Positions 3,032 to 23,580 of a stretch of DNA of 41,648 nucleotides are shown piece by piece. The stretch comes from a marine gamma proteobacterium HTCC2080 (lineage in GTDB: Bacteria > Pseudomonadota > Gammaproteobacteria > Pseudomonadales > Halieaceae). The notes beneath the pieces are model-generated. The model had not been told where the DNA came from and made no database searches. It was given only the letters and a program-made list of their open reading frames with translations. A program made the position numbers and the translations under genes. Each line of letters starts with the position of its first letter. Position 1 is the stretch's first letter. Where the stretch lies: positions 1-41,648 of the forward strand of contig AAVV01000018.1 of NCBI GenBank assembly GCA_000169115.1, in the 5' to 3' direction.

Positions 3032-4585
3032 TCAGATCCGGGAAATCAAGCGTTCTTTGAGCACAAATTTTTGTACTTTTCCTGCAGGATTTCTGGGTAA
3101 CTCATCAACGACATGAAGCTCTCGAGGCTGCTTGTAACGTGCCAACTTTCCTGCAAGAAAATCACTCACAGACTTGATGGAAATATCAGAGGAATCGTCA
3201 ATAACCGCTACAGCGACAACCTTCTCACCCCACTTATCATCAGGAAGGCCGAGCACAGCGACCTCCTTGACACCGGGCAGGGCTAACAACTCACCCTCTA
3301 CCTCAGCGGGGTATACATTCTCACCACCTGAGATGATCATGTCTTTCTTTCTATCACAGATGAAAAGATATCCATCATCATCAAGATAACCAATATCACC
3401 CGTGAGAAACCAGCCGCGATTATCAAATGCATCACGCGTTGCTGCCTCAAGGCCCCAATAGCCGGCTGTCACATTGGGGCCTGACACGCAAATTTCACCA
3501 CGCTCCAGAGCGGGCACTACTGCTCCGCTGGCATCAACAATACAAACCTCCGTAAACATCAGGGCTTTGCCGGCAGATCCTTTTTTAGTGACGGAATCTT
3601 TGCTGCTCAAAACGCTGACGTAGGGCGCAGTTTCCGTCAATCCATAGCCCTGACAAAACTGAACACCTTTTTCCAAATAGGTCTCAATCAGTGGCAAAGG
3701 AACCGGCGCCGCCCCACAATTAAAGGCTATGATTGAGCTGAAGTCTGTTGCCTCGAATGTGCTTTCATAAGTCAACATATCGAACATGGTGGGCGCGCCA
3801 AACATTGTAGACACTTGGTACTTTTCAATGTCAGCCAAAATTCGTTTAGCGTCGAATGCTTGATGCAGGACCACGTGCACACCACTTACCAGCGATGGGT
3901 GAGTCGTGACATTCAACCCCCCGATATGAAACAAGGGCGCACAGGTCAGTGTCGTCCCGCGCATAATTTCTTCCATAAATTTAGCATTCAGCAAGTTCCA
4001 GAAAATATTTCCGTGACTTAACAACGCCCCCTTGGGGCGGCCAGTCGTTCCCGACGTATACATAATTAACGCAGTATCGCTCTCCGTTACCTGCGCGGGG
4101 ATTAGGCTCCTTCCGGCCATCTCGATGGCGTCATTGGCTAGGGCGCTGTCTAGGGCTGTCCAGCCACGAGAATTAAACCCGACGCTGATCAAGTGTTTAC
4201 AAGGTAATTCATCTTCGTATCCGTCAATAAGGTGTGCGGTAAATTGATCCGCAAAAAGAACCTTAAGGCCCGAATCATTGGCGATAAACTGTACCTCTTG
4301 AGAGGTCAATCGATAGTTCAGTGGCACGAAGATCGCACCTACCAGACTACTCGCGTATAGCACCTCTAGAAAACGCGGATGATTTTGTCCCAGGTAGCCC
4401 ACACGATCGCCTGGCTCTATATTCAACGACTTCAAGAAGTACGCGACTTTTCCGATGTTTTGCGCCAATTGTTCGAATGTTTGTGTGTCGCCTTCGTAGG
4501 TCAGGGCTGGATCCTGAGGGGTCATTTTGGCCCTGCGCATCACCATATGCCCCATTCCCACAGAGCTTTCATTATTTCGGTTCAT
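3032..4585 (-). CDS. Acyl-CoA ligase (AMP-forming, class I adenylate-forming family)
   Basis: A 517-residue adenylate-forming enzyme that would activate a carboxylic acid to its CoA thioester through an acyl-AMP intermediate. Visible motifs are the phosphate loop MYTSGTTGRPKG (residues about 176-187), GYGLTETAPYVS, the hinge region GDIGYLDDDGYLFICDRKKD, ISGGENVYPAEVE and the C-terminal NPAGKVQKF holding the catalytic Lys. The start at 4585 is preferred over an upstream one at 4621 because AGGA lies six bases ahead and the protein then begins near the family's usual N-terminus. It is the nearest CoA ligase to the P450/monooxygenase genes and could activate the ring-opened acid of that pathway (inference). 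Chain length or ring specificity cannot be read. Confidence 0.93.
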   Translation of the reverse strand: MNRNNESSVGMGHMVMRRAKMTPQDPALTYEGDTQTFEQLAQNIGKVAYFLKSLNIEPGDRVGYLGQNHPRFLEVLYASSLVGAIFVPLNYRLTSQEVQFIANDSGLKVLFADQFTAHLIDGYEDELPCKHLISVGFNSRGWTALDSALANDAIEMAGRSLIPAQVTESDTALIMYTSGTTGRPKGALLSHGNIFWNLLNAKFMEEIMRGTTLTCAPLFHIGGLNVTTHPSLVSGVHVVLHQAFDAKRILADIEKYQVSTMFGAPTMFDMLTYESTFEATDFSSIIAFNCGAAPVPLPLIETYLEKGVQFCQGYGLTETAPYVSVLSSKDSVTKKGSAGKALMFTEVCIVDASGAVVPALERGEICVSGPNVTAGYWGLEAATRDAFDNRGWFLTGDIGYLDDDGYLFICDRKKDMIISGGENVYPAEVEGELLALPGVKEVAVLGLPDDKWGEKVVAVAVIDDSSDISIKSVSDFLAGKLARYKQPRELHVVDELPRNPAGKVQKFVLKERLISRI

Positions 4586-5003
4586 ATCGAGTCCTAAAAA
4601 TTTCAACGCAGCAACTGGCAAGAGCCCTTAGCAAGCCCGGCTGAAGATAATGTCATTTATACATATTTTTTTAAAGATATATTATCGCTCAGACACATAA
4701 TGGCCGGTGAATTTCGGGAAGAAAGTGAGTAGGAACCAACTCAAGGCGATGGGTAATTAATAAGCCCATAGAAAACGATGGAAATCGTTAACACTGCCAG
4801 TGTGACGTATACGCACTTTTACTCAGCATTACAGCGCCTGACGGTGCAATGGAAGCAGCCCATGAGACCGACGATCGATCGTCATTGCTGGAGCGCCGCA
4901 AGCCGCTTACGAGAAAAAGACTTTTGAATAAAGCAAAAGAATGTTCGTGGTTCAACTCATTGATGAGGCTAGCGACCTCATGAATATATGACCCGTAGGG
5001 ACA
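4586..5003. other. Intergenic region upstream of the acyl-CoA ligase
   Basis: No gene is convincing in these 418 bases. The part next to the ligase gene is AT-rich (about 4641-4690) and should contain its promoter. ATAATGTCA at 4647-4655 is identical to the left arm of the palindrome at 7731-7751, so the same regulator could act here, but the second arm is only weakly matched. The remainder (about 4700-5000) shows nothing I can name. Confidence 0.5.
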
Positions 5004-6398
5004 TTAGCTGCCAAGACGTCGCAAAGCACCTTTGGTCAAAAAACGATCATACGCATCCGGGATATTGGCCTCTGAACGATAGCCGCCAACCACCTCCTTG
5101 ACTTGCTCTAGTCGGGTCACGCGATTGGTTTGCACATCGTGAGCATGAACTCGCGTCCATGACCAGTAAGGGTGGTCACCGTCCATCACGCGAGATTTAC
5201 CGTTATCATAAAGGGAAAATGCGCCGTCGAAAGATCGATAGATTTTTCCCTGTCGATCGAAGCTCACCATACTAACCGGTAGCATTGTGCGGGCATCGAA
5301 AGCGACTCGCTTTTTGCCTACGGGCGCCCTGGGATACCCCGTGGGTTCTGCCTCTACAACCAGCACTTCCGGAATAAGCTCTACCGAAGTATTCCAGAAA
5401 GTCTCGCCGTGTTGTCCGCCATGAACATGGCCCTCCCAATTGGCAGAGTCAGATTGCCAACCACTGTTGATAGCGGCAAGCATCGGGCCTCGGTTCACCA
5501 GTTGAAAATTTCCCCACGTCAAGAAGGGATCTCCTGCTGCCCAGGCATCTGACATGTAAATGGTAGAGCCCGGGATCATAGGTTCAAATCGCTGATTTGT
5601 AGGAAATCGCCTTACCCGCTTAAAGGCAGGTAAATAACCATACAGCTCGGGATAACGATTTTGATCATAGGGCCATATGTTGAGATAAGAAGTCCCGCGG
5701 GTGTCACTGGGCGTTAAAAAAAACACCGACTGAAACCTCAGCTTATCCTCATGGCCCTTCATGTAGGGCTGGGGGTCCAAAACGAGACGTCCTGTCGCAT
5801 TCATCTCGACCCAGCAAGATTGGTACTCGTAGGCGACCTTGCCGTTAGGGTCAAGGTCATACTCTTTCACAGCGTACAGGGAGACATCATGGCGACCCCA
5901 GCTTAGCGTAGCCCCTGCAAAAATTTCAGTTGCTGATTGCGGGTCGGGAAATGGATTGCCACCTATCCAAGGGGCACCCTCCTCAGTCACGACATTGCCG
6001 TCTTCAGCAAACCGAGCGCGCCCCTGATTTCTGAGCGTCGCCTCAATGTATTCCCAAGGACTTAGACGGTATAAGTCCGTAGTGGCAGGAATAACATCCA
6101 ACTTTCTTCCCATCTCAGAGACTTGCAGATACTGAATGGGGTCTAGTAATTCCCGAACGTAGTGAACATTACTCGCATCTATAACACTGCCCTCTGAAAC
6201 CTTTCCTTTTGTATAGTCGGTGAGAGAAGCTAGTTCGTCTGGATAAACCCCTTCGGTAGAACCTCGAGCAGCCAATGCAGGCCAAAGCGGCATAAGAACG
6301 CCGGTGGCTAATGCCCCGTTAGCCATCCCCTTTAAAAAATGGCGACGAGAAAAGTCGTGGTTAAACTTTTTGATGTGCAACGTTCTTCTCTCAGTCAT
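5004..6398 (-). CDS. DUF1329 family protein, Tat-exported (copy 1)
   Basis: About 464 residues of the DUF1329 family, whose biochemical function is not established. The N-terminus carries a twin-arginine signal, SRRHFLK, followed by a hydrophobic stretch ending PALAARG, so export in folded form to the periplasm is expected. It aligns along its whole length with the protein at 16650-18023: shared blocks include YTKGKVS, EATLRNQG, PWIGGNPFPD, LSWGRHD, FKRVRRFP, QRFEP and TGYPRAPVGKKRV. The start is uncertain: ATG at 6398 lacks a clear ribosome-binding site, while TTG at 6380 matches the start of the paralogue and follows a purine-rich stretch. It is in line with the ferredoxin reductase gene 73 bases upstream, suggesting co-transcription. 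Confidence 0.9.
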   Translation of the reverse strand: MTERRTLHIKKFNHDFSRRHFLKGMANGALATGVLMPLWPALAARGSTEGVYPDELASLTDYTKGKVSEGSVIDASNVHYVRELLDPIQYLQVSEMGRKLDVIPATTDLYRLSPWEYIEATLRNQGRARFAEDGNVVTEEGAPWIGGNPFPDPQSATEIFAGATLSWGRHDVSLYAVKEYDLDPNGKVAYEYQSCWVEMNATGRLVLDPQPYMKGHEDKLRFQSVFFLTPSDTRGTSYLNIWPYDQNRYPELYGYLPAFKRVRRFPTNQRFEPMIPGSTIYMSDAWAAGDPFLTWGNFQLVNRGPMLAAINSGWQSDSANWEGHVHGGQHGETFWNTSVELIPEVLVVEAEPTGYPRAPVGKKRVAFDARTMLPVSMVSFDRQGKIYRSFDGAFSLYDNGKSRVMDGDHPYWSWTRVHAHDVQTNRVTRLEQVKEVVGGYRSEANIPDAYDRFLTKGALRRLGS

Positions 6399-6471
6399 CG
6401 GCAACAGGAATAAGCCAAAATCGAGAACCTTTCGTCATCACGGGGCAACGAGAACAGCGCACGAATCTCAG

Positions 6472-7677
6472 TCATACAAGCAATGATTTTAGATCGACCG
6501 AAGAATCGGCCAGCTTTTCCACATCGACCTGGAGACCATAAAGGCGCTTCCCCACCATAAAGGCTCTGGGGAAGTTAATTGCCTCAACTGCCACCAGCCG
6601 ATTGTCGTGTAAGTAAAAGGTCGCAAACTCATGCTCTTCCTGCCTACCGCGACAGACACTGCTAGTCCCATCAGCTGAAAAGCCAACTGCTTGAAGTTTG
6701 CTTGAAAATTGATCACTCCAGAACCAAGGAACAGATCGGTAGCACTTGTCTTCACCCAGCATATTCACAGCGGCAACTTTGGCTTGATCTGTAGCATTAG
6801 GCGCAGATTCCAGCCGCAAGCGTCGATTTAAATAGTGGTTAGGATGATTGGTGCAGTCCCCTGCTGCATAAATATTGGCTACCGACGTTCTGCACTGCTC
6901 ATCGACTAAAATTCCATTGTCGCACTCAACACCCGCTGACTCCGCTAGCTCGGTATTAGGGATCGCGCCAATTCCCACAAGAATCAAGTCAGCCTCGATC
7001 ACACTATTACGACATACCACACGCTCTGCGCAAACCTCACCCTCTATGCTGAATATCTCTGAATTACACTGAATATCTACGCCCTGAGAGCGATGTAAAT
7101 TCTCAAAGTAGTGACTCATAGTCTCGGTAGTCACGCGCTTAAGAAGCCGGTCCGCTGACTCAAGCACCGTTACGTCTAATCCAGCTTTAATCGCCACTGA
7201 AGCAAATTCAAGTCCTACGTAACCGCCGCCAATAAGACAGACTCGTTTAGCCGTTGCCATAGCGCCCTTGAGCTTTTCAACATCGGCTATGGTTCTCAGG
7301 TAATACACTCCTGGCAACTCAGCGCCCGGAATTAGGAGCTGGCGTGGTCGCGCACCGGTCGTAAATAGCAGCCGGTCAAACTTTATTTCGCAATCTTTAC
7401 TTGTCTGAGCGATACCTGACTCGGGATCAATCCTTGCAATGGTGGTTTCCTTCAACAGTTCTATCTGCTGCTGCTCATAAGTCGTTTCAGGCCTGACCAA
7501 CAAACTGTTGTAGGCAAGCGCACCTGACAGGTATCCCTTTGATAGGGGTGGACGCTCGTAAGGAGCATGGGGTTCGGACCCTGCTAATTTGATATCGCCG
7601 TCGTACCCCGAGGCGCGCAATTGCAGCGCCGCAGTACCTCCGGCCTGGCCCGCCCCTACAATTAACACACCCGACAT
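6472..7677 (-). CDS. Ferredoxin reductase, FAD/NAD(P)H-dependent (putidaredoxin-reductase type)
   Basis: A 401-residue flavoprotein with an N-terminal FAD fold (GAGQAG, residues 8-13), an ERPPLSKGYL segment typical of rubredoxin and putidaredoxin reductases, a second dinucleotide fold for NAD(P)H (GGGYVG, about 150-155) and IYAAGDCTNHPN near residue 275, which contacts FAD. It lacks the redox-active CxxxxC of disulfide reductases, as expected for this branch. It would pass electrons from NAD(P)H to the 2Fe-2S ferredoxin at 9117-9431, which in turn reduces the P450 at 11592-12839: a class I bacterial P450 chain as in camphor hydroxylation. The start is supported by GGGAGGAGG shortly before ATG. 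It is divergent from the tandem-MarR regulator. Confidence 0.93.
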   Translation of the reverse strand: MSGVLIVGAGQAGGTAALQLRASGYDGDIKLAGSEPHAPYERPPLSKGYLSGALAYNSLLVRPETTYEQQQIELLKETTIARIDPESGIAQTSKDCEIKFDRLLFTTGARPRQLLIPGAELPGVYYLRTIADVEKLKGAMATAKRVCLIGGGYVGLEFASVAIKAGLDVTVLESADRLLKRVTTETMSHYFENLHRSQGVDIQCNSEIFSIEGEVCAERVVCRNSVIEADLILVGIGAIPNTELAESAGVECDNGILVDEQCRTSVANIYAAGDCTNHPNHYLNRRLRLESAPNATDQAKVAAVNMLGEDKCYRSVPWFWSDQFSSKLQAVGFSADGTSSVCRGRQEEHEFATFYLHDNRLVAVEAINFPRAFMVGKRLYGLQVDVEKLADSSVDLKSLLV

Positions 7678-7727
7678 TTGCCTCCTCCCGGAGCAGAGTT
7701 ACGCATGAAATTCCTCCGCGATTTGGC

Positions 7728-7757
7728 ATCATAATGTCACAATGATATTATCTACAA
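7728..7757 (-). promoter_or_regulatory. Likely promoter of the ferredoxin reductase gene with palindromic operator
   Basis: On the minus strand, TTGTAG (7752-7757) and TATGAT (7728-7733) form a sigma-70-like pair with an 18-base spacer. The spacer plus the edge of the -10 box is filled by an imperfect inverted repeat at 7731-7751 (arms ATAAT-N-TCA and TGA-N-ATTAT around three bases). Such placement fits a repressor site, and the neighbouring MarR-like gene is the obvious candidate to bind it. The -35 box is weak. Confidence 0.5.
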
Positions 7758-7773
7758 AAGACATATTTTAAAT

Positions 7774-7785
7774 AATGATGTCATT
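7774..7785. promoter_or_regulatory. Short inverted repeat between the operator and the MarR-like gene
   Basis: AATGA-TG-TCATT is a 12-base inverted repeat with perfect five-base arms, about 22 bases from the larger palindrome and about 53 bases before the regulator's ATG. It could be a second, autoregulatory site; this rests only on symmetry and position. Confidence 0.35.
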
Positions 7786-7838
7786 CAATTTCGAGTTGCT
7801 GTGTGCGACCATTGAGCAATCCAGTTGGTTTTATAGAT

Positions 7839-8966
7839 ATGCCGAAAACAGAAGCTTCACACCAAGCACACGTAAAATCTGTAGACAGAGCCCAAGCGGC
7901 TCGCCTACTACTTGAGCTTCTCTACCGAGTGCACTACATAGTCGGCATGAAGGTGCAAGACACGCTTAGAACAAATGATGGCCTAGATCGCCACCAGACT
8001 GCAGTACTTTGGATTATTCGTTCCGAGGGTACAGACGGCAGATCCATCTCCAGAAAGTACGTAGAAAAGCAACTGACGAGTTGGTATGACATCAGCAGTA
8101 GCGCTATTTCCAAAGCCATTCGTGGACTAGCTTCCAAGGACATCGGATTTCTTAATATTACCGAGAGTCCCAACTCGGGTAGAGAAAAGCTGATTGAGTT
8201 AACACCGGCTGGTGTCTTTTTTATGCAAAAAATGACTCGCAATGGATCAGCAATGTGCGAATGGTATTTGGAGAACATGTCCCAGTGGGAATCAGAAGTT
8301 GATGTCTGTCTGTTCATCTACACAAAAATCACTGCACTGTTTGGAAAAATGATCGATGCCGAGCGGCGCGACGCTGGCGAGCCAGTTGCCTATGCAGCGC
8401 CACAGGAATCGGTACTCCATCACCCCCTAACCCATGTCATCACAGAAAAGAGCTATTCATGGGATGAAATACCGACTGTCCCACGCGAGTATGTCCCGCT
8501 GATGCAGCTCAATATCTTTTTTCCAATTCACTACAAAGCGGGAAATAAACTCGAGCTGGTGATGCGCAGCGGCACTGACTTAAGCCGGCAACAAATCATC
8601 ATTCTTCTATTAATGTTTGGCGAAGGGGAAAACCACTCAAAAATGGCGCGCAAACGCATAGAAGCCGCGTTAAGTAGCTGGTTGGAGCTGACGAGTAGTT
8701 CAGTCTCGAAGGCGATCCGCTCACTCACCACTCGCGAGGTTGGCTTGTTAACGATTGATGAGAGCCCTGAATCTGGCCGGGAAAAAATCGTTCAACTGAC
8801 CCCTAAAGGCAGGAAATTTGTTTCTAAACTGGTCGAAAGTGGCGTTAACTACCTTCAGACACTGGTAGACCAACTGGGCGATGACGAGCTGGACATGGTC
8901 GTTCACATTTTCGAAAGAACAAACGCCATTTTTGACAGCTACCCAGGGCCTTTTCGCGTCGGCTGA
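7839..8966 (+). CDS. Regulator with two tandem MarR-like winged-helix domains
   Basis: A 375-residue protein consisting of the same domain twice, about residues 18-171 and 218-366, with a linker of roughly 45 residues. The recognition-helix region is almost repeated (SSSAISKAIRGL and TSSSVSKAIRSL), each preceded by LTSW / LSSW and followed by a wing ending ESPNSGREKLIELTP / ESPESGREKIVQLTP. Ordinary MarR proteins are about 140-180 residues and bind palindromes as homodimers; here the two subunits appear fused, giving a built-in pseudo-dimer. The start at 7839 (ATG) is chosen over GTG at 7803 because homology begins later, but neither has a good ribosome-binding site. It sits between the reductase gene and the P450 operon, so control of the catabolic genes is the simplest role (inference). 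Confidence 0.85.
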   Translation: MPKTEASHQAHVKSVDRAQAARLLLELLYRVHYIVGMKVQDTLRTNDGLDRHQTAVLWIIRSEGTDGRSISRKYVEKQLTSWYDISSSAISKAIRGLASKDIGFLNITESPNSGREKLIELTPAGVFFMQKMTRNGSAMCEWYLENMSQWESEVDVCLFIYTKITALFGKMIDAERRDAGEPVAYAAPQESVLHHPLTHVITEKSYSWDEIPTVPREYVPLMQLNIFFPIHYKAGNKLELVMRSGTDLSRQQIIILLLMFGEGENHSKMARKRIEAALSSWLELTSSSVSKAIRSLTTREVGLLTIDESPESGREKIVQLTPKGRKFVSKLVESGVNYLQTLVDQLGDDELDMVVHIFERTNAIFDSYPGPFRVG

Positions 8967-9116
8967 ACACCCACCCAAGCTCTCGCGGGGGCCGCTGTCG
9001 CCAAACTCAGAGCGCTTGTGAGATTAGGGTGTGACTGTTCTACTGCTTAAGAGCAGACATTATCAAGCCCCTTCCGGGTTACCCAAACACGTCACCTCAA
9101 AGCGCCATTACAGCGC

Positions 9117-9431
9117 TCAGAAACCCTCCTCTGGCGCCACAGTAATTTTCATACCCTCCATTGCTTCAGTCACGATCAGCTGACAGGAAAGTCGGCTATC
9201 TTCTTGGGCGAACTTCAAAAACTCAATGACCTCAGCTTCGTCATCACTAGGAGGAGGAAGATCGGAAACCCACGCCTCTCCGATAAACAGATGGCATGTT
9301 GCACAAGAACAAGAACCGCTGCAGGTTGCGTCCACAAGATCATGAGTCCGCAGAGATAGCATCAGAGACTCGCCAACCGTAGCCTCAACCGTGTGCTCCT
9401 CGCCCTGTCTATCTGTAACCAATAGTTTCAT
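9117..9431 (-). CDS. 2Fe-2S ferredoxin (adrenodoxin/putidaredoxin type)
   Basis: A 104-residue protein with the vertebrate-type ferredoxin cluster motif: C37-x5-C43-x2-C46 (CSGSCSCATCHLF) and C83 in RLSCQL. C41 is an additional Cys inside the loop. This family carries single electrons from a flavin reductase to a class I P450. The reductase (6472-7677) and P450 (11592-12839) are both in the locus, completing the chain. It is the last gene of the same-strand run, 41 bases after the DUF3237 gene, and converges on the MarR-like gene. The start is preceded by GGAAG. Confidence 0.94.
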   Translation of the reverse strand: MKLLVTDRQGEEHTVEATVGESLMLSLRTHDLVDATCSGSCSCATCHLFIGEAWVSDLPPPSDDEAEVIEFLKFAQEDSRLSCQLIVTEAMEGMKITVAPEEGF

Positions 9432-9472
9432 ACCACATGCTTCCAGTTCAGGTGCCGCAGAAACGGCAAAAA

Positions 9473-9928
9473 TTAAAGTATTTCGTAGACGTCGTAACCC
9501 AGCTTACCGCCGCCAAACTTGGTCATCTTACCGACGGCCATTATATCATTTAACCAGGCAAACTTTTCCGAGCTTGTCTCAAAATTTGGGGCCGAGCGCA
9601 GATAAAGATCCTCTCCAGTCAACACTTCGCCGGCTGCCGAACGCGCCGCTAGCTCCTCGGTCATTCTGACTACTCCACCGTAGTAGCAATAAATTGTGTC
9701 ACCCTCTTCCGTTCTCATGGCAAGGCGCGCGTCGATTTTCCAGTTACCGTTGTCCTGAATTCTTGCCCAGTCTCCGCTAGGCCCGATCATTTCACCGCGC
9801 AGCAAAGGTCCTTCGAAACTACCTCCGGTGACATTAATCACAACCAAACCAGGCGTGGCGACCACAGGCGGCTCGAAACTGATATCTATGCTCATCAGAA
9901 ACCGGCTATCTATTCCAGATTCAGACAT
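9473..9928 (-). CDS. DUF3237 family protein
   Basis: A 151-residue protein matching the DUF3237 (UPF0311) pattern: a lipocalin-like small barrel with GGSFEGPLLRGEMIGPSGDW near residues 35-54, an acidic-aromatic middle, and a C-terminal TGEDLYLRSAPNFETSSEKFAWLN. The function of the family is not established, though members turn up beside catabolic oxygenases. It lies 28 bases after the Baeyer-Villiger enzyme gene and 41 before the ferredoxin gene, so it is very likely co-expressed with them. A role on a pathway intermediate (isomerisation, hydrolysis or carrying) is plausible but unproven. GGGAG eight bases before ATG supports the start. Confidence 0.88.
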   Translation of the reverse strand: MSESGIDSRFLMSIDISFEPPVVATPGLVVINVTGGSFEGPLLRGEMIGPSGDWARIQDNGNWKIDARLAMRTEEGDTIYCYYGGVVRMTEELAARSAAGEVLTGEDLYLRSAPNFETSSEKFAWLNDIMAVGKMTKFGGGKLGYDVYEIL

Positions 9929-9956
9929 ACTTATAACTCCCTAGCTGACTAATTAT

Positions 9957-11573
9957 TTATGAAAAAGAAAACCCGCCGAGGCCACTGGCACCAGCTTCAC
10001 ACTGCTCTCTGTAAAGCGGGAATCCTCCAAAGAAGAACACGACATTACGCGGTTTTCCCTCAATGTTATCGCCCATGTAATAGTTATCCGACTTAGGAAA
10101 TAGCGTCATGTTGCCGATATCGTTAGTAAACTGAACGTATTGTCGTTCTGCATCGACATCGGGCTCTATCGTGTCGGCATTATGTGTTCGAAGTTCTTCA
10201 AACAACCGACAAATAAAATCACCCTGATACTCAGCAAGTAGTATTGGGTTATAGAAAGGGCTGTGAGGACCATTCACCCAAAACAGATTTGGAAAGCCAT
10301 TGGTCATCATACCGAGGTAACTTGTCAGCCCCTCTGACCAACGATCCTTGAGAGTCCGGTCGTTTCGTCCTCGGACATCAATTCGATCCATAGCCCCGGT
10401 CATGACATCAAATCCCGTAGCGAAAACTACCGCATCTAATTCAAGCTCTTCACCACCGACGATAATTCCAGATGCGGTAAATCGCTCAATCGGTCGCTCG
10501 TTCAGATCCACTAAATCTACATTGGCCTGATTGAAAACCTCGAGATAATTCGTCTCAGGTGATAGTCGACGCGTTAAAATTTGATAGTCCGGGCAAAGCT
10601 TCTCTGCCAATTCGGGATCATCGACTCTCTCGCGGATTTTTTCTCGAGCAAACTCGGCCAAAGTTTCATTCGAAGTCTCGTCCAACAGGCTATCGGTATA
10701 AGCGTAATAAGGTGAAAGACCGCCAGAGGCCCATCGGTTTTCGTACTCCGCCCTTCGCTCTTCAGGGCTGACCTCGAGTGCGGACTGCGATGGCAGCGGC
10801 GCTAATTCTGAGTGCACGAGGGTAAAGCCCGCAAAAGAATCGTACTGCAACTGACGCAGCGACTCGTAGTTGGTCTTTATATTGGCAACTTGCTCTGCAT
10901 TAACAGGACGATTTTGAAGTGGAATCGTATAAGACGGCGTCCGTTGCAACACATAAAGCTGATCCGCTTCTTTCGCCACTTCAGAAATTACCTGAATGCC
11001 ACTAGAGCCCGTGCCAATTACAGCCACTCGCTTCCCTGCAAATTCCGGCGCCTCTTGCGGCCAACGGCTGGTCATAAACTGCTCGCCCCTAAAGCTCTCC
11101 AAGCCTTCAAACCGCGGTTCCACCGGCGCTGAAATGAGGCCAGTCGCCATAATGCAATATTGAGCGGACACAACATCACCCTGATCGGTTGTCACCAGCC
11201 ATCGACGGGTTACTTCATCGAAAATAGCGGAGACGACGCGAGTGCCAAACTGTATTTTTTCATTCAGATTAAATCGTTCAGCAACATGATTCGCATATCG
11301 CTCGATCTCTGGTTGAGCCGCGTACCGCTCAGACCACTGCCACTCCTGCTCTAACTCCTTGGAAAAAGAGTAAGAGTATTCGACACATTCGATGTCTACT
11401 CGAGCACCCGGATAGCGGTTCCAGTACCAGGTACCCCCTACGCCATTACCTGCCTCAAAGCAGGTTACGGAAAGGCCCGCTTCCTGCGCTTTATAGGTCA
11501 TGTAGAGGCCGGCGAAGCCAGCTCCTACTACGACCATATCAACTTGCAATTGTGGCTTTCCTGAATCAGACAT
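9957..11573 (-). CDS. Baeyer-Villiger-type flavin monooxygenase
   Basis: A 538-residue class B flavoprotein monooxygenase. It has the FAD motif GAGFAG (17-22), the Baeyer-Villiger type I signature GGTWYWNRYPGARVD (46-60), a second dinucleotide fold GTGSSG (187-192) for NADPH, and TRRLSPETNYLEVFN (334-348), where the conserved active-site Arg is expected. The usual fingerprint F-x-G-x3-H-x3-W-P is present at 161-172 except that its His is Met167. The family inserts one oxygen next to a ketone to give an ester or lactone, using NADPH and O2. Between the P450 (18-base gap) and DUF3237 genes, it would follow alcohol-to-ketone oxidation. GGAGGG precedes the ATG. The changed fingerprint leaves open a hydroxylase-like activity. 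Confidence 0.92.
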   Translation of the reverse strand: MSDSGKPQLQVDMVVVGAGFAGLYMTYKAQEAGLSVTCFEAGNGVGGTWYWNRYPGARVDIECVEYSYSFSKELEQEWQWSERYAAQPEIERYANHVAERFNLNEKIQFGTRVVSAIFDEVTRRWLVTTDQGDVVSAQYCIMATGLISAPVEPRFEGLESFRGEQFMTSRWPQEAPEFAGKRVAVIGTGSSGIQVISEVAKEADQLYVLQRTPSYTIPLQNRPVNAEQVANIKTNYESLRQLQYDSFAGFTLVHSELAPLPSQSALEVSPEERRAEYENRWASGGLSPYYAYTDSLLDETSNETLAEFAREKIRERVDDPELAEKLCPDYQILTRRLSPETNYLEVFNQANVDLVDLNERPIERFTASGIIVGGEELELDAVVFATGFDVMTGAMDRIDVRGRNDRTLKDRWSEGLTSYLGMMTNGFPNLFWVNGPHSPFYNPILLAEYQGDFICRLFEELRTHNADTIEPDVDAERQYVQFTNDIGNMTLFPKSDNYYMGDNIEGKPRNVVFFFGGFPLYREQCEAGASGLGGFSFS

Positions 11574-11591
11574 TAAGGATCCCTCCGTCTT

Positions 11592-12839
11592 TTAAGCAGG
11601 CACGAAATTAACCGGACAGCTTGAGGGTCCGTAGTTAATAAAGTTTCGATCTTGGTATGTCACAGGGGCACTACCCGGGTCGACCCGCTGATAACGGTCC
11701 AAGATGCCGTTGATCATGGCTGCCGCCTCATTTCGGGCAACAATGGATGCGATGCAGTGGTGGATACCATGGCTAAAGGTCAAGTTTTTCCCAACATTCG
11801 GACGGTTCAAAATAAACTCGTGGGGACGCTCAAACATTTCAGGATCGTGGTTTCCCGCGCCGAAAAAGACGCAAACCCACTCACCTTTCTTGATGGGCGT
11901 ACCGCCGATTTCAGTATCCTCTAGACACTCTCGGAATAGTCTCTGAATCGGACCATCCCGTCGAATGCTTTCCTCTAGGAAGGGTCTAACCAGCGATCGG
12001 TCATCGCGCATTTGCTGATAAAGCTCAGGCATTTCCAGCATAGCAGCCACCTGATTACCAATCAGAAACACACTGGATTCAGCACCACCAGCGACCATCG
12101 TGATACAGAAACGCACAACTTCCTCAGGAGTCAGCTTGCGGCCATCGTCTCCGCTAGCCTCGATGAAGCCTGTCAGCAAATCGTCATTTGCCATTCCACG
12201 TTTGATCATGTCGTATCGCTGACCCACCTGATCGGTGTAATACTCATGAAGCTCCACGTTTGATTGAGCCTTCTCAGACATTGTCATTGTAGAGGTGCCC
12301 ATGTAGGCGTCAGCCCAGCCTCGGATCTTTTTAAAGTCTTCAGCCGGTGTACCCAAAAGCTTCGCAATGTACTTTGGCGGCAAATCAGCGGCTAAGTTCG
12401 TCATGACATCTAAATGCCCGGAGCCTTCTTCATTGAGCATATCGGCAACGGTTTCGTGTAGCCAAGGCGCAACATCTGCTTCAACACGTTTAGGGGAAAA
12501 GGCCTTTCTAGCGATAGTACGTAGCCAGGTATGCTCAGGCTGATCATGATTAACCAGCATCAGTGTGGGAGCGTCTGATTGTTCCTGCATGCGGTCACGC
12601 GAAGAAAAGATTTGGTGATTAGAAGCCACATGAATAAGGTCTTTGTATTTCAAAACCGCCCAAGAAGGTATGGGCTCATCCATTCCTTCCACTGTGCCCG
12701 GTGGATACCCCCGCACACCAAATTGCAGAGGCTTATCACGCAACATATCGTAGTAAGGGAAGGGGTTACGAATCACCGCAGCTTGTTCCAAATCACGAGC
12801 GTGAAACTCGTCTCCTGCAATCACTAAATCATCTGACAT
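11592..12839 (-). CDS. Cytochrome P450, soluble bacterial class I
   Basis: A 415-residue P450 without membrane anchor. The haem-ligand loop is FSHGIHHCIAS with the Cys at about residue 362; the Gly usually found two residues after the Cys is Ala. The K-helix ExxR is in EESIRRDGP, and the I-helix oxygen-activation motif reads AGGAESS (acid Glu, then Ser where Thr is common). It would hydroxylate a hydrophobic substrate using electrons from the ferredoxin (9117-9431) and reductase (6472-7677). It follows the dehydrogenase gene by 23 bases and precedes the Baeyer-Villiger gene by 18, a tight operon. AGAGGA upstream of ATG supports the start. The CYP family and substrate cannot be named from inspection. 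Confidence 0.95.
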   Translation of the reverse strand: MSDDLVIAGDEFHARDLEQAAVIRNPFPYYDMLRDKPLQFGVRGYPPGTVEGMDEPIPSWAVLKYKDLIHVASNHQIFSSRDRMQEQSDAPTLMLVNHDQPEHTWLRTIARKAFSPKRVEADVAPWLHETVADMLNEEGSGHLDVMTNLAADLPPKYIAKLLGTPAEDFKKIRGWADAYMGTSTMTMSEKAQSNVELHEYYTDQVGQRYDMIKRGMANDDLLTGFIEASGDDGRKLTPEEVVRFCITMVAGGAESSVFLIGNQVAAMLEMPELYQQMRDDRSLVRPFLEESIRRDGPIQRLFRECLEDTEIGGTPIKKGEWVCVFFGAGNHDPEMFERPHEFILNRPNVGKNLTFSHGIHHCIASIVARNEAAAMINGILDRYQRVDPGSAPVTYQDRNFINYGPSSCPVNFVPA

Positions 12840-12862
12840 TTCAATTTCCTCTTTAATTTTGT

Positions 12863-13690
12863 TCAGGTGGCGTAAAAACCGCCGTCAATAACCAGTTCTG
12901 AGCCCGTGACATAACGGCTCGCATCTGATGCGAGATAAACGACACCGGCCGCAATATCGGAGGGTTGACCTGCCTCTCCCATCGGGACCGCAGCTAAAAA
13001 CCCAGCTTCTGACGCTTCCATGCTGGGAGCCACGCCAAGTGCAACAAGTTGTTCATGAAATAAGGAACCCATGTCGCTGTCGATGATTCCGGGGTGTATT
13101 GAGTTGCAGCGAATATTCGTTTTTAACAGCGCACATTCCGCTGCCACCGATTTCGACAACAATCGAACCGCACCTTTTGAAGCGTTGTAAGAAGCCAGAG
13201 CAATAGTTCCCGAAAGACCCATAACTGACGACATATTTATAATTGAGCCACCGCGACCGCTGACTCCATCGGGTCGCATTGCTCTCAAGGCATGTTTGCA
13301 ACCCAAGGTTGGTCCAGCGACATTGACATCCTGAACGCGCCGAAATTCATCAATATCGAGGTCAGCAAGAAAGTTCATTGGAACAATCCCCGCGTTATTT
13401 ACCATGATGTCGATGCCACCAAAGGTAGAGACCGCTACCGCTACCGCTGACTCCCACTCGAGTTCATTGGTAACGTCGTGCTTCATCCAAGCCGAATGCC
13501 CCCCTGCTGCATTCAATGCGTCTGATACCGCTTTTGCACCTTCGTCGTTCACGTCAGTTGCAAGTACTGCTGCGCCAGCAGACACTAACGCCCTGCAAAT
13601 CTCCGCACCTAAATTACCGCCAGCTCCGGTAACCAAGGCAACCTTGCCATGCAATTGAAACGCGGCTTTGTAGTCTTTTACTTCACCCAT
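12863..13690 (-). CDS. Short-chain dehydrogenase/reductase
   Basis: A 275-residue classical SDR: cofactor motif TGAGGNLG (21-28), VNNAG (97-101), structural Asn in DVNVAG (about 123), Ser in NMSSVMG (about 154-155) and catalytic YNASK (Tyr168, Lys172). ATDVND after the second strand has an acidic residue typical of NAD preference. In this locus it is well placed to oxidise the alcohol made by the P450 to the ketone used by the Baeyer-Villiger enzyme, like the camphor pathway's hydroxycamphor dehydrogenase in role though not necessarily in family. GGTGGTG lies before ATG. It is first in the enzyme block, 110 bases downstream of the DUF1302 gene. Confidence 0.93.
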   Translation of the reverse strand: MGEVKDYKAAFQLHGKVALVTGAGGNLGAEICRALVSAGAAVLATDVNDEGAKAVSDALNAAGGHSAWMKHDVTNELEWESAVAVAVSTFGGIDIMVNNAGIVPMNFLADLDIDEFRRVQDVNVAGPTLGCKHALRAMRPDGVSGRGGSIINMSSVMGLSGTIALASYNASKGAVRLLSKSVAAECALLKTNIRCNSIHPGIIDSDMGSLFHEQLVALGVAPSMEASEAGFLAAVPMGEAGQPSDIAAGVVYLASDASRYVTGSELVIDGGFYAT

Positions 13691-13800: not shown

Positions 13801-15642
13801 TTAGAACTGATAAGTCAATCGAAAAGCCAATTCTTCAACGAAATCGAAAGTCGACATGGCATCCATGTTGTCGTCACCCCCGCCCACAAAATTGGCGAAC
13901 AGCTCAGCACTAATCGACTTGCTAGGCTTGTAACGAATCCCAGGCTGCACGAGATAGCCGCCCTCTGTGTCGTACAAGAAAGCAAAATCGGTACGCCATT
14001 TCAGTGTTGGCGAAGGCTGTTGAAATGCAAATGACACAGCGTTGAAGCTACTGCGACCCGTAGGTGGTCCAAAAGTGTTCGCACCATAACCGTCTAAGTG
14101 GCGACCAAAAATATCGCTCTCAGATTTATGCAGCCACTGAAAGACCATGTAGGTTGCAGGGAAACCTTGCGAGAACCTGTGGTACTTCTCGACCACCAAC
14201 GAAGTTATGTACTCATCTTCAACGAGGAAGTCGGCTCCCAGTAATGATGGGTCAGTAAAGACGCGATCTGGTGTGTAGGTCGCTTCGAACCGAACAATTA
14301 ATTGATCGATAAACGAATCCGGTTCGCCAAAAAACATATAGTTAGCACCGAACCCGTAAATCTCCTCTCGATGGAATGTGCGCTCAATATGGCCTTTAAA
14401 TTCTCCCAGTCCAAGATTTGGTGAGAAAAACGCATCCAGTACTGTGGTTGAAAGAGCGTAGTTATCTACTGGCGTATCCGGTGGCAATCCAAAGTTGCCC
14501 AACGCGCCGCTCACTAGAGCTTGTGCCGCCGGGAAATCATCAAGGAGGGCCTGAAGGTTGCTACCGTTTAGGCGTGACCCTGCGGCCTCTGTCATCCACT
14601 GCTCCGCGGAATAAATGCCCAATCCGCCTGAAATTGGCTCAAAGGGAGTCTGGGCCAAAAGACCACCAATGCCAGGATCAGCGATCCCGGCGCGATCGAA
14701 AACGTTAATTCCAGATTCCGTCCAGCGGAAGGCGCCATCAGGATTCATCCTGTCCGTAAAAGTAAACTGCAAGCCCAATTCACCGATCTGGCCCCGTAAT
14801 CGAGCACCGAAATTGAACTCGTCGTCGACTGCATCAAAGCCCTCCTCTTGATGCACTGTAAAAGTGGAGGTGATGGGGTTGTACGGCGTATTAGCATTTG
14901 ATAGCACCGTAGGCTGGAACTCCTGTATCCATCCCTCAAGCTCCCAGTCGTTTTGGAAGCGATAACTACCGCGGATGCCTAGAGCAGGAACGCGTTTGTC
15001 CGAAAACTCTTCCGACGCCCAATCAAACGCCGAGTGTCGACGCAGGTCTAGGCCATTGGGGTTATCCAGCACCCTGAAGAAAATAGATTCGCCCCATGCA
15101 ATCTGCTGATTGCCTATTCGCAACCACAAGGGCCCGGAGTTGTAATCTAAGTAGAGCGATGGCAAGTCAACCATGTAGTCAGAGCCACAAACCTCTAAAC
15201 GCGTGGCACATTCACCACGAAAAGGCGACTCAAAATAGTTGGTCTCACCGGGACCACTATCGTAGGTATCCCATGCATAGAGTCCGCGCACTTTGGCAAC
15301 GAGCTTCCAATTGTCATTGATAGTAGCGTCAATATCGATCTCGGCCCTGGTAAGCATGACGTTCCAGTCGTTGCTCTCGGTAAATGATGCGGGTCGAGTT
15401 ACGGTTCCCGGGGGTATACCCAACAGCTGGTCGACCACATTAGGGGCGGCCACGCCGTTGTAAACGTTACCAGACTGGTTCCATGGATTTTCGTTTTTGC
15501 TGTCGATACTGTAGGCGCCCTCCTGCCGGACAAATCCGGAGACATACCAGTCAATCGCGAGCGCTGACTGAGAAAGCCCTGCCAATAACATGAGGCTTGC
15601 TTTTGTGAGAGTTCTGTTGACCCCTCTTTTATTTATTTTCAT
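13801..15642 (-). CDS. DUF1302 family outer-membrane protein
   Basis: A 613-residue protein with a Sec signal peptide ending QSALA, followed by IDWYVSGFVRQEGAYS and a series of amphipathic strands, ending in LAFRLTYQF with the terminal Phe expected of Bam-inserted barrels. The DUF1302 family is predicted to form outer-membrane barrels and often accompanies DUF1329 genes; its substrate is unknown. The start at 15642 (ATG) is chosen over an adjacent GTG because AGAGGA then has a better spacing. It lies 24 bases after the YCF48 gene. An uptake or export pore for a hydrophobic compound is the natural inference. Confidence 0.92.
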   Translation of the reverse strand: MKINKRGVNRTLTKASLMLLAGLSQSALAIDWYVSGFVRQEGAYSIDSKNENPWNQSGNVYNGVAAPNVVDQLLGIPPGTVTRPASFTESNDWNVMLTRAEIDIDATINDNWKLVAKVRGLYAWDTYDSGPGETNYFESPFRGECATRLEVCGSDYMVDLPSLYLDYNSGPLWLRIGNQQIAWGESIFFRVLDNPNGLDLRRHSAFDWASEEFSDKRVPALGIRGSYRFQNDWELEGWIQEFQPTVLSNANTPYNPITSTFTVHQEEGFDAVDDEFNFGARLRGQIGELGLQFTFTDRMNPDGAFRWTESGINVFDRAGIADPGIGGLLAQTPFEPISGGLGIYSAEQWMTEAAGSRLNGSNLQALLDDFPAAQALVSGALGNFGLPPDTPVDNYALSTTVLDAFFSPNLGLGEFKGHIERTFHREEIYGFGANYMFFGEPDSFIDQLIVRFEATYTPDRVFTDPSLLGADFLVEDEYITSLVVEKYHRFSQGFPATYMVFQWLHKSESDIFGRHLDGYGANTFGPPTGRSSFNAVSFAFQQPSPTLKWRTDFAFLYDTEGGYLVQPGIRYKPSKSISAELFANFVGGGDDNMDAMSTFDFVEELAFRLTYQF

Positions 15643-15666
15643 CACGTTTCCTCTGTTTGACTATTT

Positions 15667-16650
15667 TTATTGCAATTCAACTTTCAAAATATTCGCTCTA
15701 TGTCCTGCTAAAAGAATCATTGGCGTGCCCAGCGAGCTTTCCGGTGAGACTTCTAGGCCCTGATACCAGCCCTGCAAAAAGGCCGCATTGTCATTGAGAA
15801 TCCAGTGGTCACCGCCGTCGTCGCTAACAATCAGTTGTCGCATACCGGTGGCAACAATCACGCCGCCATCTATGCTGGTTACATTCAGTAAAATATCCGT
15901 GGTGGGTGTTTTTATGGTGGCCCAGGAAGTGCCGGCATCAGACGTCGACAGCAGCGTTCCTTCCTGCCCCACCGCATAGCCAATACCGGAGCTATCAATA
16001 TTCAAACCAAATAATGAAGGCTCACCACGCTGCCGCGTTGCCCAGGACTTGCCCTGATCAAGGGACTGAAGAATCAGAGAGAATTCACCCACAATGGTGA
16101 TGACGCCCTGCTCGGAAATATCAACGTCGTACAGGTGGGGATCAACGTAATCATCAAGGACTTCAAACCAGTCAACGATTGATGACGTCCAGCTTTGCCC
16201 TCCATCGGTCGAAACCAAAATGCTACCGAAAGCCCCAACGGCGACTGTTAGCCCATTTGCTTGTGAATGGGCCACACTCATCAGACGCGCATCAGAACCT
16301 GTTGATACCGCCTGTATAGCGCCGTTCGTACGCCGATATACCTCACCACTTTGACCGACATACAGCTCGATTCCACGGCCACACTCGACGTCTAGCAAAG
16401 CAACCTCCGCAAATCGTTCCGACTCAATCCACGTATCACCGCCATCTGCAGATGACAGAATCAAGCCTGCCTCGCCCACGGCAATCGCTTTCGCTTCATC
16501 GACACACAGCCCGTAAATCGCCTCATGCTTAAACCCTGCATGAACACTTTGAACATTCGTTTTTTCTAAGCTGAGAGAATTGGCCAGCGCTAAGCCGCTG
16601 ACCAATGGAAACATCCAGAAAAAACTAAAGCGAAAAAGCCGCCGTTGCAT
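15667..16650 (-). CDS. YCF48/BNR-repeat exported protein
   Basis: A 327-residue beta-propeller-like protein with a signal peptide (MQRRLFRFSFFWMFPLVSG, ending ALANS). At least five BNR-type turns are visible: SSADGGDTW, STDGGQSW, SLDQGKSW, STSDAGTSW and SDDGGDHW, each after a hydrophobic strand of the AVGxxG kind (IAVGEAG, VAVGAFG, GYAVGQEG). The family is related to the photosystem II assembly factor YCF48, but in non-photosynthetic bacteria it is mostly uncharacterised. The ATG at 16650 shares its first base with the stop of the DUF1329 gene (TGATG), pointing to translational coupling; a longer reading from 16716 lacks a signal peptide at its start and was rejected. Confidence 0.9.
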   Translation of the reverse strand: MQRRLFRFSFFWMFPLVSGLALANSLSLEKTNVQSVHAGFKHEAIYGLCVDEAKAIAVGEAGLILSSADGGDTWIESERFAEVALLDVECGRGIELYVGQSGEVYRRTNGAIQAVSTGSDARLMSVAHSQANGLTVAVGAFGSILVSTDGGQSWTSSIVDWFEVLDDYVDPHLYDVDISEQGVITIVGEFSLILQSLDQGKSWATRQRGEPSLFGLNIDSSGIGYAVGQEGTLLSTSDAGTSWATIKTPTTDILLNVTSIDGGVIVATGMRQLIVSDDGGDHWILNDNAAFLQGWYQGLEVSPESSLGTPMILLAGHRANILKVELQ

Positions 16651-18023
16651 CACGCACCCAGTCGCCGAATTGCAGGAATGGTCATGTACTTCTCGTACAG
16701 ATCGCCCTGATTCCAACCAGACTTATATCCACCTCTAATCTGATCTGCCTGATAAAAACGGCTCATTCGATTAGTCTGGATATCGTGCACATGGCACTTT
16801 GTCCACGACCAGCCTGGGTGAGCACCATCCATTTTGGTGGTGTCGCCGTCGACGTATTGGCTTGTGGTCGCTTCAACGGACTTCCACAACTCTCCGCGAC
16901 GATCGTAGGTCACGCAGCTGGTAAACATCATGTTTCGTGTATCAAGCCAGACACGCTTTTTCCCAACAGGTGCTCTGGGATAGCCAGTTGGCTCCATGTC
17001 AACAACGATGCATTCGGGCACCAATTCCATAGCCGTTTCAAAGAACGTTTGACCCTTTGGACCACCATGCACGGAAGGCTCTGAGTTTGGATTACTGCCG
17101 TGCCAGTTTTGAGAGACACCACCCAGCATCGGCTTACGCTCGACAACCTTGTAGTTACCCCAGGTCAACATGGGATCGCCCGCACACCATCCGTCAGACA
17201 AGAACAGGGTGATTCCGGGAACCAAGGGCTCAAATCGCTGACTTGAGGGAAAGCGCCTTACGCGCTTAAACGCCGGTATATAGCCGTAAAGGTCTGGAAA
17301 ACGACGCTGATCGTTATACCAAGTGCTTACAAATGAGGTTCCCCTTGAATCATTTGGGTAGGTAAACCAGATCGAGTTATAGCGGAGTATGTCTTCCTTA
17401 CCTGGCCAGTAGGGCTCACTACTGTTAACTAGCCCAATAGTGTTCTGTTCACTCCAGCAAAAGTCATACTGATATTGTTCACTGCCATCAGGTCCGATGT
17501 CCCAATCTCTAATCCCGTAAAGCGCCTGATCGTGACGACCCCAGCTTAGCGTGAGGTTCGCGTATGCCTCTAATCCTGTCTTGGCATCGGGAAATGGGTT
17601 ACCGCCAATCCAGGGTGACCCGTCTGCGGTGATCACATTGCCGTTCTCGTCGAGCTGAGCCTTACCCTGATTGCGGAGTGTAGCCTCGAGATATTCATGG
17701 GGAAAAAGCTTGGTAACGTCAGTAGTGGATTTGACGATCTTGATCTGCCTACCCATATCTTTGACTTCGATATAGGCGATTGGGTCTAACAGATCTTTCA
17801 CATACTCGACGTTGTCCGCCGTAATCATGTCACCCGTGCTCACTTTTCCCTTTGTGTAACCCTCGATTGAAAGCAGTTCGTCAGGGTACGCCTTGGTAAT
17901 ATCTTGAGCGTTCGATATCAAAGGCCAAAGCGGCGCAAGTACACCAGCACCCAAAGCTCCTTTACTGACAGTTTCAAGAAAATGTCGCCGGCTAAAGTTG
18001 TGATCGTATTTTTTGATATGCAT
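16650..18023 (-). CDS. DUF1329 family protein, Tat-exported (copy 2)
   Basis: A 457-residue paralogue of the protein at 5004-6398, similar over the full length. It begins MHIKKYDHNFSRRHFLE, with the twin-arginine motif at residues 10-14 and a hydrophobic stretch after it, so periplasmic export by Tat is expected. Conserved blocks with the paralogue include YTKGKVS, YLEATLRNQGKA, SPWIGGNPFPDAK, LSWGRHDQALYG, KRVRRFPSSQRFEPL and PTGYPRAPVGKKR. AGGTGGA lies before ATG. Its stop overlaps the YCF48 start by one base, and the MMPL transporter gene lies 71 bases upstream, forming the DUF1329-YCF48-DUF1302 envelope group. Function of the family is unknown. Confidence 0.93.
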   Translation of the reverse strand: MHIKKYDHNFSRRHFLETVSKGALGAGVLAPLWPLISNAQDITKAYPDELLSIEGYTKGKVSTGDMITADNVEYVKDLLDPIAYIEVKDMGRQIKIVKSTTDVTKLFPHEYLEATLRNQGKAQLDENGNVITADGSPWIGGNPFPDAKTGLEAYANLTLSWGRHDQALYGIRDWDIGPDGSEQYQYDFCWSEQNTIGLVNSSEPYWPGKEDILRYNSIWFTYPNDSRGTSFVSTWYNDQRRFPDLYGYIPAFKRVRRFPSSQRFEPLVPGITLFLSDGWCAGDPMLTWGNYKVVERKPMLGGVSQNWHGSNPNSEPSVHGGPKGQTFFETAMELVPECIVVDMEPTGYPRAPVGKKRVWLDTRNMMFTSCVTYDRRGELWKSVEATTSQYVDGDTTKMDGAHPGWSWTKCHVHDIQTNRMSRFYQADQIRGGYKSGWNQGDLYEKYMTIPAIRRLGA

Positions 18024-18094
18024 GTTTTTCCACCTGTTTATTTTTTTTCTAAATTTTTTTGTGAGGGCTTTACTGTTTACCCATCACTCCCTGA

Positions 18095-23410: not shown

Positions 23411-23580
23411 CTCCAATCTAATTGCTTTTACTGACGAAAACCTAGCGAGTTTTAGGATGGAAAGCTCTAGGAAAAAAACCGCCAACAATCTTACTAGCAA
23501 GATAAGGGGGTAATAAAATTAATGTTTTATACTTGATTATGAACACCGAGAAGCATTTTTGCGCCCAAAACGCATAGCGC

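Follow-up and report, generated by a model that had tools for sequence, protein, structure and literature searches.

A gene cassette of surface-ocean bacteria that pairs a cytochrome P450 with a Baeyer-Villiger-like flavoprotein and may serve catabolism of a hydrophobic compound

The camphor pathway of Pseudomonas putida combines a cytochrome P450, a putidaredoxin-type ferredoxin, a flavin adenine dinucleotide (FAD) reductase, a dehydrogenase, a Baeyer-Villiger step, and coenzyme A (CoA) ligation; its monooxygenases are diketocamphane monooxygenase, which uses flavin mononucleotide, and OTEMO. A contig of the marine gammaproteobacterium HTCC2080 (AAVV01000018.1, 41,648 nucleotides, analyzed whole and here called the window; contig C8 of the 3.58-Mb genome) carries a cassette of similar parts, namely, a P450, a putidaredoxin-type ferredoxin, an FAD reductase, a short-chain dehydrogenase/reductase (SDR), a Baeyer-Villiger monooxygenase (BVMO)-like flavoprotein, and an acyl-CoA ligase. 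An earlier, sequence-only reading had placed these six activities in the window as a camphor-like pathway, and domain and profile matches located each of them where it had been claimed. The cassette differs from the camphor system in that its P450 is nearest to P450PL2, its flavoenzyme resembles phenylacetone and steroid monooxygenases more than OTEMO, and it adds a DUF3237 protein, an AmeABCD-like transporter, and, in some sister loci, an alpha/beta-hydrolase. We propose, with a probability of roughly 0.7, that it is a module with which surface-ocean bacteria catabolize one hydrophobic, probably cyclic terpenoid-like compound and that it has probably spread horizontally.

Two further systems invite comparison, each cited from the excerpts available. 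An alcohol dehydrogenase, a BVMO, and an esterase have been proposed for subterminal alkane oxidation in Thalassolituus; that route shares its enzymatic logic and a marine gammaproteobacterial host with the cassette, but its BVMO groups with EthA types and the locus tags of its three genes are distant from each other (PMC6304351). The AmeABCD system of Castellaniella defragrans, whose AmeA is a DUF1302 protein and whose AmeC has photosystem II assembly factors as relatives, has been connected with the metabolism of monoterpenes, and its deletion lowered monoterpene tolerance (PMC6394551). The window likewise has these four families in one set adjoining genes for a hydrophobic substrate, although its set lies beside a P450-BVMO cassette, has the order D-B-C-A in the direction of transcription, and encodes a putative transporter. 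As chemistry, then, the pathway is of a known kind; as a gene set, no described member was found among the literature matches listed.

The evidence that the genes belong together comes from their co-occurrence, the absence of which in other genomes would, by the earlier reading, have refuted a common pathway. A P450-alignment scan of named genomes, which detects only relatives sharing one of two short peptides, yielded 83 confirmed loci, 80 of which were kept, and their neighbors were searched by tblastn (E value of 1e-6) within at most 10 kb on each side, several contigs being shorter. The P450 was at least 71% identical to that of the window in seven loci (L043 to L049), all of which have an adjoining SDR gene (at least 69% identity) and BVMO-like gene (at least 66%). 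Around the other 73, whose P450s are at most 56% identical, no BVMO above 33% identity and no DUF3237 gene was found in that search, weak BVMOs (27 to 33%) lying near the P450 in four of them. The seven loci belong to Luminiphilus, SAR92, and the alphaproteobacterial PS1/Rhodobiaceae group; Luminiphilus is probably the genus of the host of the window and of two close sister genomes, whose P450s are 98% identical to that of the window. Ferredoxin and a fused regulator are encoded in six of the seven (the contig of L048 ends early), DUF3237 in five (L048 ends before it, and none was seen in L049), the acyl-CoA ligase in four (L043, L045, L046, and L047; L044 and L048 end before its place, and none was seen in L049), and the ferredoxin reductase in four (not seen in L047 or L049), with 52 to 53% identity in the SAR92 cassettes. 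A second DUF1329 copy is 72 to 73% identical in the SAR92 cassettes and present only as fragments in L047. In a genome from another family of the same order (G334, which we take to be HTCC2207), nine genes from ligase to SDR keep order and orientation at 53 to 77% identity, with one extra gene; because the same genes recur in the same order at such identities, the arrangement is far beyond chance.

The P450 and the flavoprotein are also rare in the same way. For the samples taken at the order, class, and phylum levels, scoring was limited to the best few candidates of each genome. P450 matches at an E value of 1e-80 or better occurred in 4 of 140 genomes of the family and 14 of 390 genomes of the order, the host included in both; the latter comprised G334 (77% identity) and 12 genomes of one genus (42 to 44%). 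At 1e-100, matches were present in 2 of 369 genomes of the class and 3 of 398 of the phylum, again with the host among them. BVMO matches at 1e-160 or better were limited to four genomes of the order, namely, the host, G334 (70%), and two at 48 to 50% in which the 20 kb surveyed around the BVMO showed no related P450. Only the host and G334 reached at least 60% BVMO identity, and these are the same two genomes in which the P450 is at least 77% identical. In a tree of 30 P450s (the window and 29 chosen loci, L044 and L048 being left out), all six cassette rows, which come from Halieaceae, Porticoccaceae, and Rhodobiaceae/PS1, grouped in a single clade (support, 100/100) whose stem measures 0.76 changes per column. 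The presence of the cassette in two classes is best read, from these sequences, as a sign of horizontal transfer. Among viral contigs, one stretch matched the search pattern, and none encodes a P450 relative. Many P450 and BVMO genes have been noted in other clades, HTCC2089 and Ga0077536, in the excerpt available (PMC8371827). With gene order shared by three lineages, a single P450 clade, and matching P450 and BVMO rarity, the view that the cassette is one unit is well supported, while the sequence hydroxylation, oxidation, Baeyer-Villiger reaction, and CoA ligation is our inference; the earlier pathway interpretation as a whole is thus partly supported.

The P450 and its partners have the features of a class I system, with an FSHGIHHCIA heme-Cys loop, an ExxR motif (ESIR), a CX5CX2C ferredoxin, and a PF07992/PF14759 reductase. 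Its nearest solved relative is P450PL2 (PDB 9lw0; 363 bits, against 167 bits for the next match), and a structural model aligned with 9lw0 in Foldseek at 43% identity over 403 alignment columns (TM score, 0.93). P450PL2 is of the same P450 type, but in the 73 loci with P450s of at most 56% identity, neither a BVMO above 33% nor a DUF3237 gene was found nearby, and the cassette clade stands on its own long stem. A literature search by the entry code 9lw0 turned up no paper, and the excerpt of PMC13101868 names a Parvibaculum BVMO and not P450PL2. No entry labeled as a camphor P450 was among the best 60 of 422 PDB matches, so that the P450 is not nearest to CYP101. The ten main open reading frames (ORFs) scanned contain one flavin monooxygenase and no luciferase-like domain, rather than the diketocamphane-OTEMO combination. 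The term "camphor-like" therefore holds as an analogy of chemistry and fails as a statement of membership.

In a phmmer comparison with PDB, the BVMO-like protein scored highest against entries named phenylacetone monooxygenase (507 bits) and steroid monooxygenase (497), followed by one named Baeyer-Villiger monooxygenase (474), cyclohexanone monooxygenases (at most 435), and OTEMO (399). It has the signature GGxWxxxx(F/Y)P(G/M)xxxD (GGTWYWNRYPGARVD at residue 46) and two Rossmann GxGxxG motifs (GAGFAG and GTGSSG) flanking the fingerprint; the fingerprint itself, FxGxxxHxxxW(P/D), is replaced by FRGEQFMTSRWP, with Met at the His position. The motif definition is that of the excerpt of PMC10682829 and was all that a literature search on variant fingerprints turned up. 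By the fingerprint rule, the predicted protein is not a canonical type I BVMO, and by overall similarity, its descent from one is very likely. In an alignment made without phenylacetone monooxygenase itself, whose active-site Arg is R337, a candidate RR pair is conserved within the stretch where this Arg is expected in seven of eight cassettes (L048 is cut off). The host encodes a second BVMO (C20:91556-93142, L130) with 44% identity, a His fingerprint, and a 42% identical SDR homolog about 1.3 kb away, and L137 holds a similar SDR-BVMO pair; the pairing may be older than the cassette.

Phenylacetone and steroid monooxygenases act on an acyclic methyl ketone or side chain. A tentative alternative is that the BVMO-like enzyme does the same and that the resulting ester is cut by the alpha/beta-hydrolase, no ring being opened. 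Its two best PDB relatives, the esterases among the best-match types of the hydrolase (enol-lactonase, BioH, and perhydrolase/arylesterase), and the dehydrogenase-BVMO-esterase proposal for Thalassolituus (PMC6304351, excerpt) all agree with this alternative, which nevertheless gives DUF3237 no obvious role, as the family functions described in the excerpts available concern oxygen rings. A role in steroid degradation, in which the side chain or ring D would be the target of the P450 and BVMO, seems unlikely: although the closest solved relatives of the BVMO-like protein include steroid monooxygenase and the Foldseek list of the P450 includes several steroid-binding P450s (26 to 30% identity), the HsaD cutoff (NF045632) was reached in none of the seven carrier genomes (best score, 197 of 400 bits), HsaD being the sole marker and some genomes being incomplete. 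HsaD-like matches in G000, G334, and G089 scored 191 to 197 bits. The host has an HsaD-like hydrolase at C21:256727-257515, below the curated cutoff of 400.

The cassette DUF3237 protein scored 102.6 bits against PF11578 (cutoff, 24), and its model (pLDDT of 83, from six sequences) has the family fold, with Foldseek matches to 3c5o and 3g7g (E value of 1e-11 for both) and to 4pux and 6jjs/6jjt. In the excerpts available, the DUF3237 protein PinX decarboxylates lariciresinoate with opening of the furan ring, and its homologs PhcG (42% identical) and PhcF (38%) decarboxylate a phenylcoumaran acid, also with ring opening. PhnH, a 149-amino-acid protein with a structure solved from Penicillium herquei, is described as acting in herqueinone biosynthesis, where it closes a cyclic ether by hydroalkoxylation. 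By organism and date, 6jjs/6jjt are taken to be this structure; the link between PhnH and DUF3237 is one we infer, the entry titles and the excerpt being silent on it. The cassette protein thus shares its family with PinX and PhcF/PhcG and its fold with the P. herquei structures, whereas the substrates of the former are lignin-type furan and phenylcoumaran acids undergoing decarboxylation, PhnH forms a cyclic ether, and the cassette neighbors are a P450, an SDR, and a BVMO-like enzyme. By analogy, C-O bond breaking in an oxygen ring is a fair guess for its function, and the earlier suggestion of DUF3237 as a ring opener gains some support from the PinX and PhcF/PhcG reports. A more specific scenario, which we regard as rather doubtful, would combine a diverged BVMO lineage, in which Met for His alters flavin chemistry or substrate range, with nonhydrolytic C-O opening of an oxygen heterocycle by DUF3237, spread between surface-ocean Gammaproteobacteria and Alphaproteobacteria for use of an algal terpenoid that is abundant but has yet to be connected with these bacteria. 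The host also has a second DUF3237 gene (C11:43235-43636, L139), 30% identical to the first, with a 27% identical P450 homolog and a 31% identical SDR homolog in the same 20 kb.

The earlier statement that no lactone hydrolase is encoded holds for the window and not for the cassette, as an alpha/beta-hydrolase gene (268 to 272 amino acids, opposite strand) lies within three of the seven cassettes. In H921 (L045) and HTCC2207 (L046), it stands between the DUF1329 and ligase genes, and Rhodobiaceae Ww491 (L047) has it in the equivalent position. Its best matches are of the 3-oxoadipate enol-lactonase, BioH, and bromoperoxidase/perhydrolase/arylesterase types, with NCBIfam scores far below curated cutoffs, and GWS(I/L)GG (containing the Ser), an Asp, and a His are kept in all four aligned sequences. 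Since DUF3237 and the hydrolase occur together in three cassettes, different jobs are suggested for the two. Among the Luminiphilus cassettes, those that extend to this position lack the hydrolase (the window and L043; L044 ends before it), and homologs are encoded elsewhere in all three Luminiphilus carriers (44% identity in the host, C19:136344-137141; 45% in the sisters). This Luminiphilus form was found in one of eight noncarrier genomes of the genus, chosen from, and fewer than, those listed at 90% completeness or more; the contrast of 3/3 carriers with 1/8 noncarriers is suggestive, although the carriers are close kin. In Luminiphilus, the hydrolase gene has as neighbors the genes of a luciferase-like monooxygenase, a TetR regulator, a further ligase, an APH-family protein, and a further SDR.

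Upstream of the SDR gene, DUF1302, DUF1329, YCF48-like, and RND proteins make up an AmeABCD-type HAE3 RND set (13801 to 20527). Genes of the four families flank the cassette in three loci (L043, L045, and L044, where the end of the contig cuts the set) and are found on the opposite side in L049; the contigs of L046 and L048 stop short of the transporter place. Near a P450 of 43 to 44% identity, Zavarzinia has the same four families (L082 and L114). In L047, MMPL and DUF1329 fragments at 8327 to 8953 and 15087 to 15335 lie beside the cassette and are perhaps decayed transporter genes. The two halves of the regulator are 32% identical over 157 residues (self-comparison, E value of 1e-35), and it is possibly a one-chain MarR dimer. 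Besides the six cassette loci, the fused double-MarR form occurs in L056, and shorter relatives adjoin most related P450s. Because a MarR-like gene was found by tblastn in 73 of the 80 P450 loci, the P450-regulator pair predates the cassette; an ORF-based count (38 of 60 loci) missed genes in G+C-rich genomes and was not used.

MarR regulators often control efflux, which would suit a detoxification island whose genes are neighbors only, with the P450 and BVMO acting on different compounds and the RND system exporting them. We consider this very unlikely, given the gene order common to three lineages, the ligase in 4/7 and hydrolase in 3/7 cassettes, and the matching P450 and BVMO rarity, even though AmeABCD is described as an exporter in the excerpt on Castellaniella (PMC6394551).

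In the catabolic pathway that we favor, an AmeABCD-like envelope system would handle the compound at the membrane, and electrons from NAD(P)H would pass via the ferredoxin reductase and ferredoxin to the P450, which would hydroxylate an unactivated carbon. The SDR would oxidize the alcohol to a ketone, and the BVMO-like flavoprotein may insert oxygen beside the carbonyl, giving a lactone or ester. This product could be opened by the alpha/beta-hydrolase (in the cassette in SAR92 and one Rhodobiaceae member and perhaps in trans in Luminiphilus), by DUF3237, or by both, after which the acyl-CoA ligase would pass the acid to beta-oxidation; the fused double-MarR regulator presumably controls the module. 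What each enzyme does and in which order, which way the transporter works, how the module is regulated, and what class of substrate it serves are all predictions from observed gene content, gene order, co-conservation, clade structure, and motifs.

Several points weigh against this pathway. All eight distinct cassette BVMO-like proteins have Met for the fingerprint His (with Tyr also replacing the first Phe in HTCC2207), whereas His is present in all eight distinct other BVMOs that have the first signature among the loci examined (29 matches with redundant copies, 16 with Met and 13 with His; two weaker relatives in the host, L006 and L008, fell outside the search pattern and the count). We therefore call the protein BVMO-like, and Baeyer-Villiger activity is not to be assumed. 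The parts beyond SDR, P450, BVMO, and ferredoxin are less uniform across cassettes: L049 consists of SDR-P450-BVMO-ferredoxin and the regulator, with DUF3237, the ferredoxin reductase, the ligase, and the hydrolase not found in the 21 kb seen, and L047 lacks the ferredoxin reductase and has DUF1329 and MMPL only as fragments. Being close kin, the three Luminiphilus carriers do not represent independent cases; the gene for their hydrolase belongs to another operon, where it adjoins that of the luciferase-like monooxygenase, and one noncarrier has it as well. For AmeABCD, the Castellaniella authors favor export over uptake (PMC6394551, excerpt), and DUF1302/DUF1329 proteins are reported to be needed for growth of P. 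putida on Tween 20 (PMC10866462, excerpt), so terpenes are not the only compounds to which the transporter points.

Bacteria of the SAR92, OM60-type (Luminiphilus), and PS1 groups are common in the plankton of the surface ocean, and if the shared, regulated cassette serves one hydrophobic compound, it would point to an unrecognized marine carbon source. The conserved Met offers a natural test of the role of the fingerprint His, and DUF3237, a poorly known family, gains a defined metabolic setting. HTCC2207 is a cultured strain and, as a named carrier, makes the question testable.

The layout of the locus is given in Table 1. The SDR, P450, BVMO-like, DUF3237, and ferredoxin genes form a single same-strand run with successive gaps of 23, 18, 28, and 41 bp, and the DUF1302, YCF48, DUF1329, and MMPL genes lie directly upstream on the same strand, with gaps of 110 bp between DUF1302 and SDR and 71 bp between DUF1329 and MMPL. 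From this spacing, the nine genes from MMPL through ferredoxin may form one transcript. The interval first proposed, 3032 to 13690, was too short: since the same-strand run continues through the transporter genes, we extended the feature to 20527, and the original interval also contains a DUF1329 gene and the double-MarR regulator.

Table 1. Genes of the cassette and adjoining transporter set in the window
Feature	Coordinates	Strand	Evidence
AMP-forming acyl-CoA ligase, long-chain fatty acid-CoA ligase class	3032..4621	-	PF00501 3.8e-86, PF13193; NF004837 490 bits vs cutoff 476
DUF1329 (LolA-like) protein, second copy, twin-arginine N terminus SRRHFLK	5004..6404	-	PF07044 1.3e-59
Ferredoxin-NAD(P)H reductase (FdR)	6472..7677	-	PF07992 1.2e-67, PF14759
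Regulator, two fused MarR-type domains	7803..8966	+	PF13463; self-comparison
Putidaredoxin/adrenodoxin-type 2Fe-2S ferredoxin	9117..9431	-	PF00111 2e-7; CX5CX2C; PDB matches 3lxf, putidaredoxin, terpredoxin
DUF3237 beta-barrel protein, candidate C-O lyase/ring-opening enzyme	9473..9928	-	PF11578 2.1e-29
Type I BVMO-like flavoprotein, fingerprint FRGEQFMTSRWP (Met for His)	9957..11573	-	phmmer, NCBIfam, alignment
Class I cytochrome P450, relative of P450PL2 (Parvibaculum lavamentivorans)	11592..12839	-	PF00067 6.7e-21; FSHGIHHCIA heme loop, ExxR
Short-chain dehydrogenase/reductase (SDR)	12863..13690	-	PF13561 7.7e-53, PF00106; motifs NNAG, YNASK
DUF1302 protein, AmeA-like, putatively outer membrane	13801..15645	-	PF06980
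YCF48-like protein, AmeC-like; predicted overlap with next gene	15667..16716	-	PF14870
DUF1329 protein, AmeB-like	16650..18023	-	PF07044
RND/MMPL transporter, AmeD-like	18095..20527	-	PF03176

A shared operator was sought in the window and four cassettes, with 16 intergenic regions covered in all. The commonest 7-mer, an A+T-rich word, was present in 10 of the 16, a count also reached as the maximum over 200 dinucleotide resamplings (mean maximum, 6.4), and no claim is made for it. ATGTCA/TGACAT words, picked by eye, occur in the window at 7678 to 7802 and 4622 to 5003 and upstream of the ligase gene in L045, where they form a perfect inverted repeat, and in L046, where the repeat is near perfect; they are a candidate operator, not above chance in this resampling test. 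Elsewhere among the 80 P450 loci, a family of proteins of about 136 amino acids recurs in 33 by clustering, and a SnoaL-like protein of 133 amino acids is encoded near the P450 in L032. Beyond the transporter genes, a 752-amino-acid ORF without a Pfam match, perhaps secreted, lies at 21242 to 23500 of the window; it has no match at the syntenic place in a sister genome (L027), where the MMPL gene and a lumazine-binding-like gene are about 540 bp apart.

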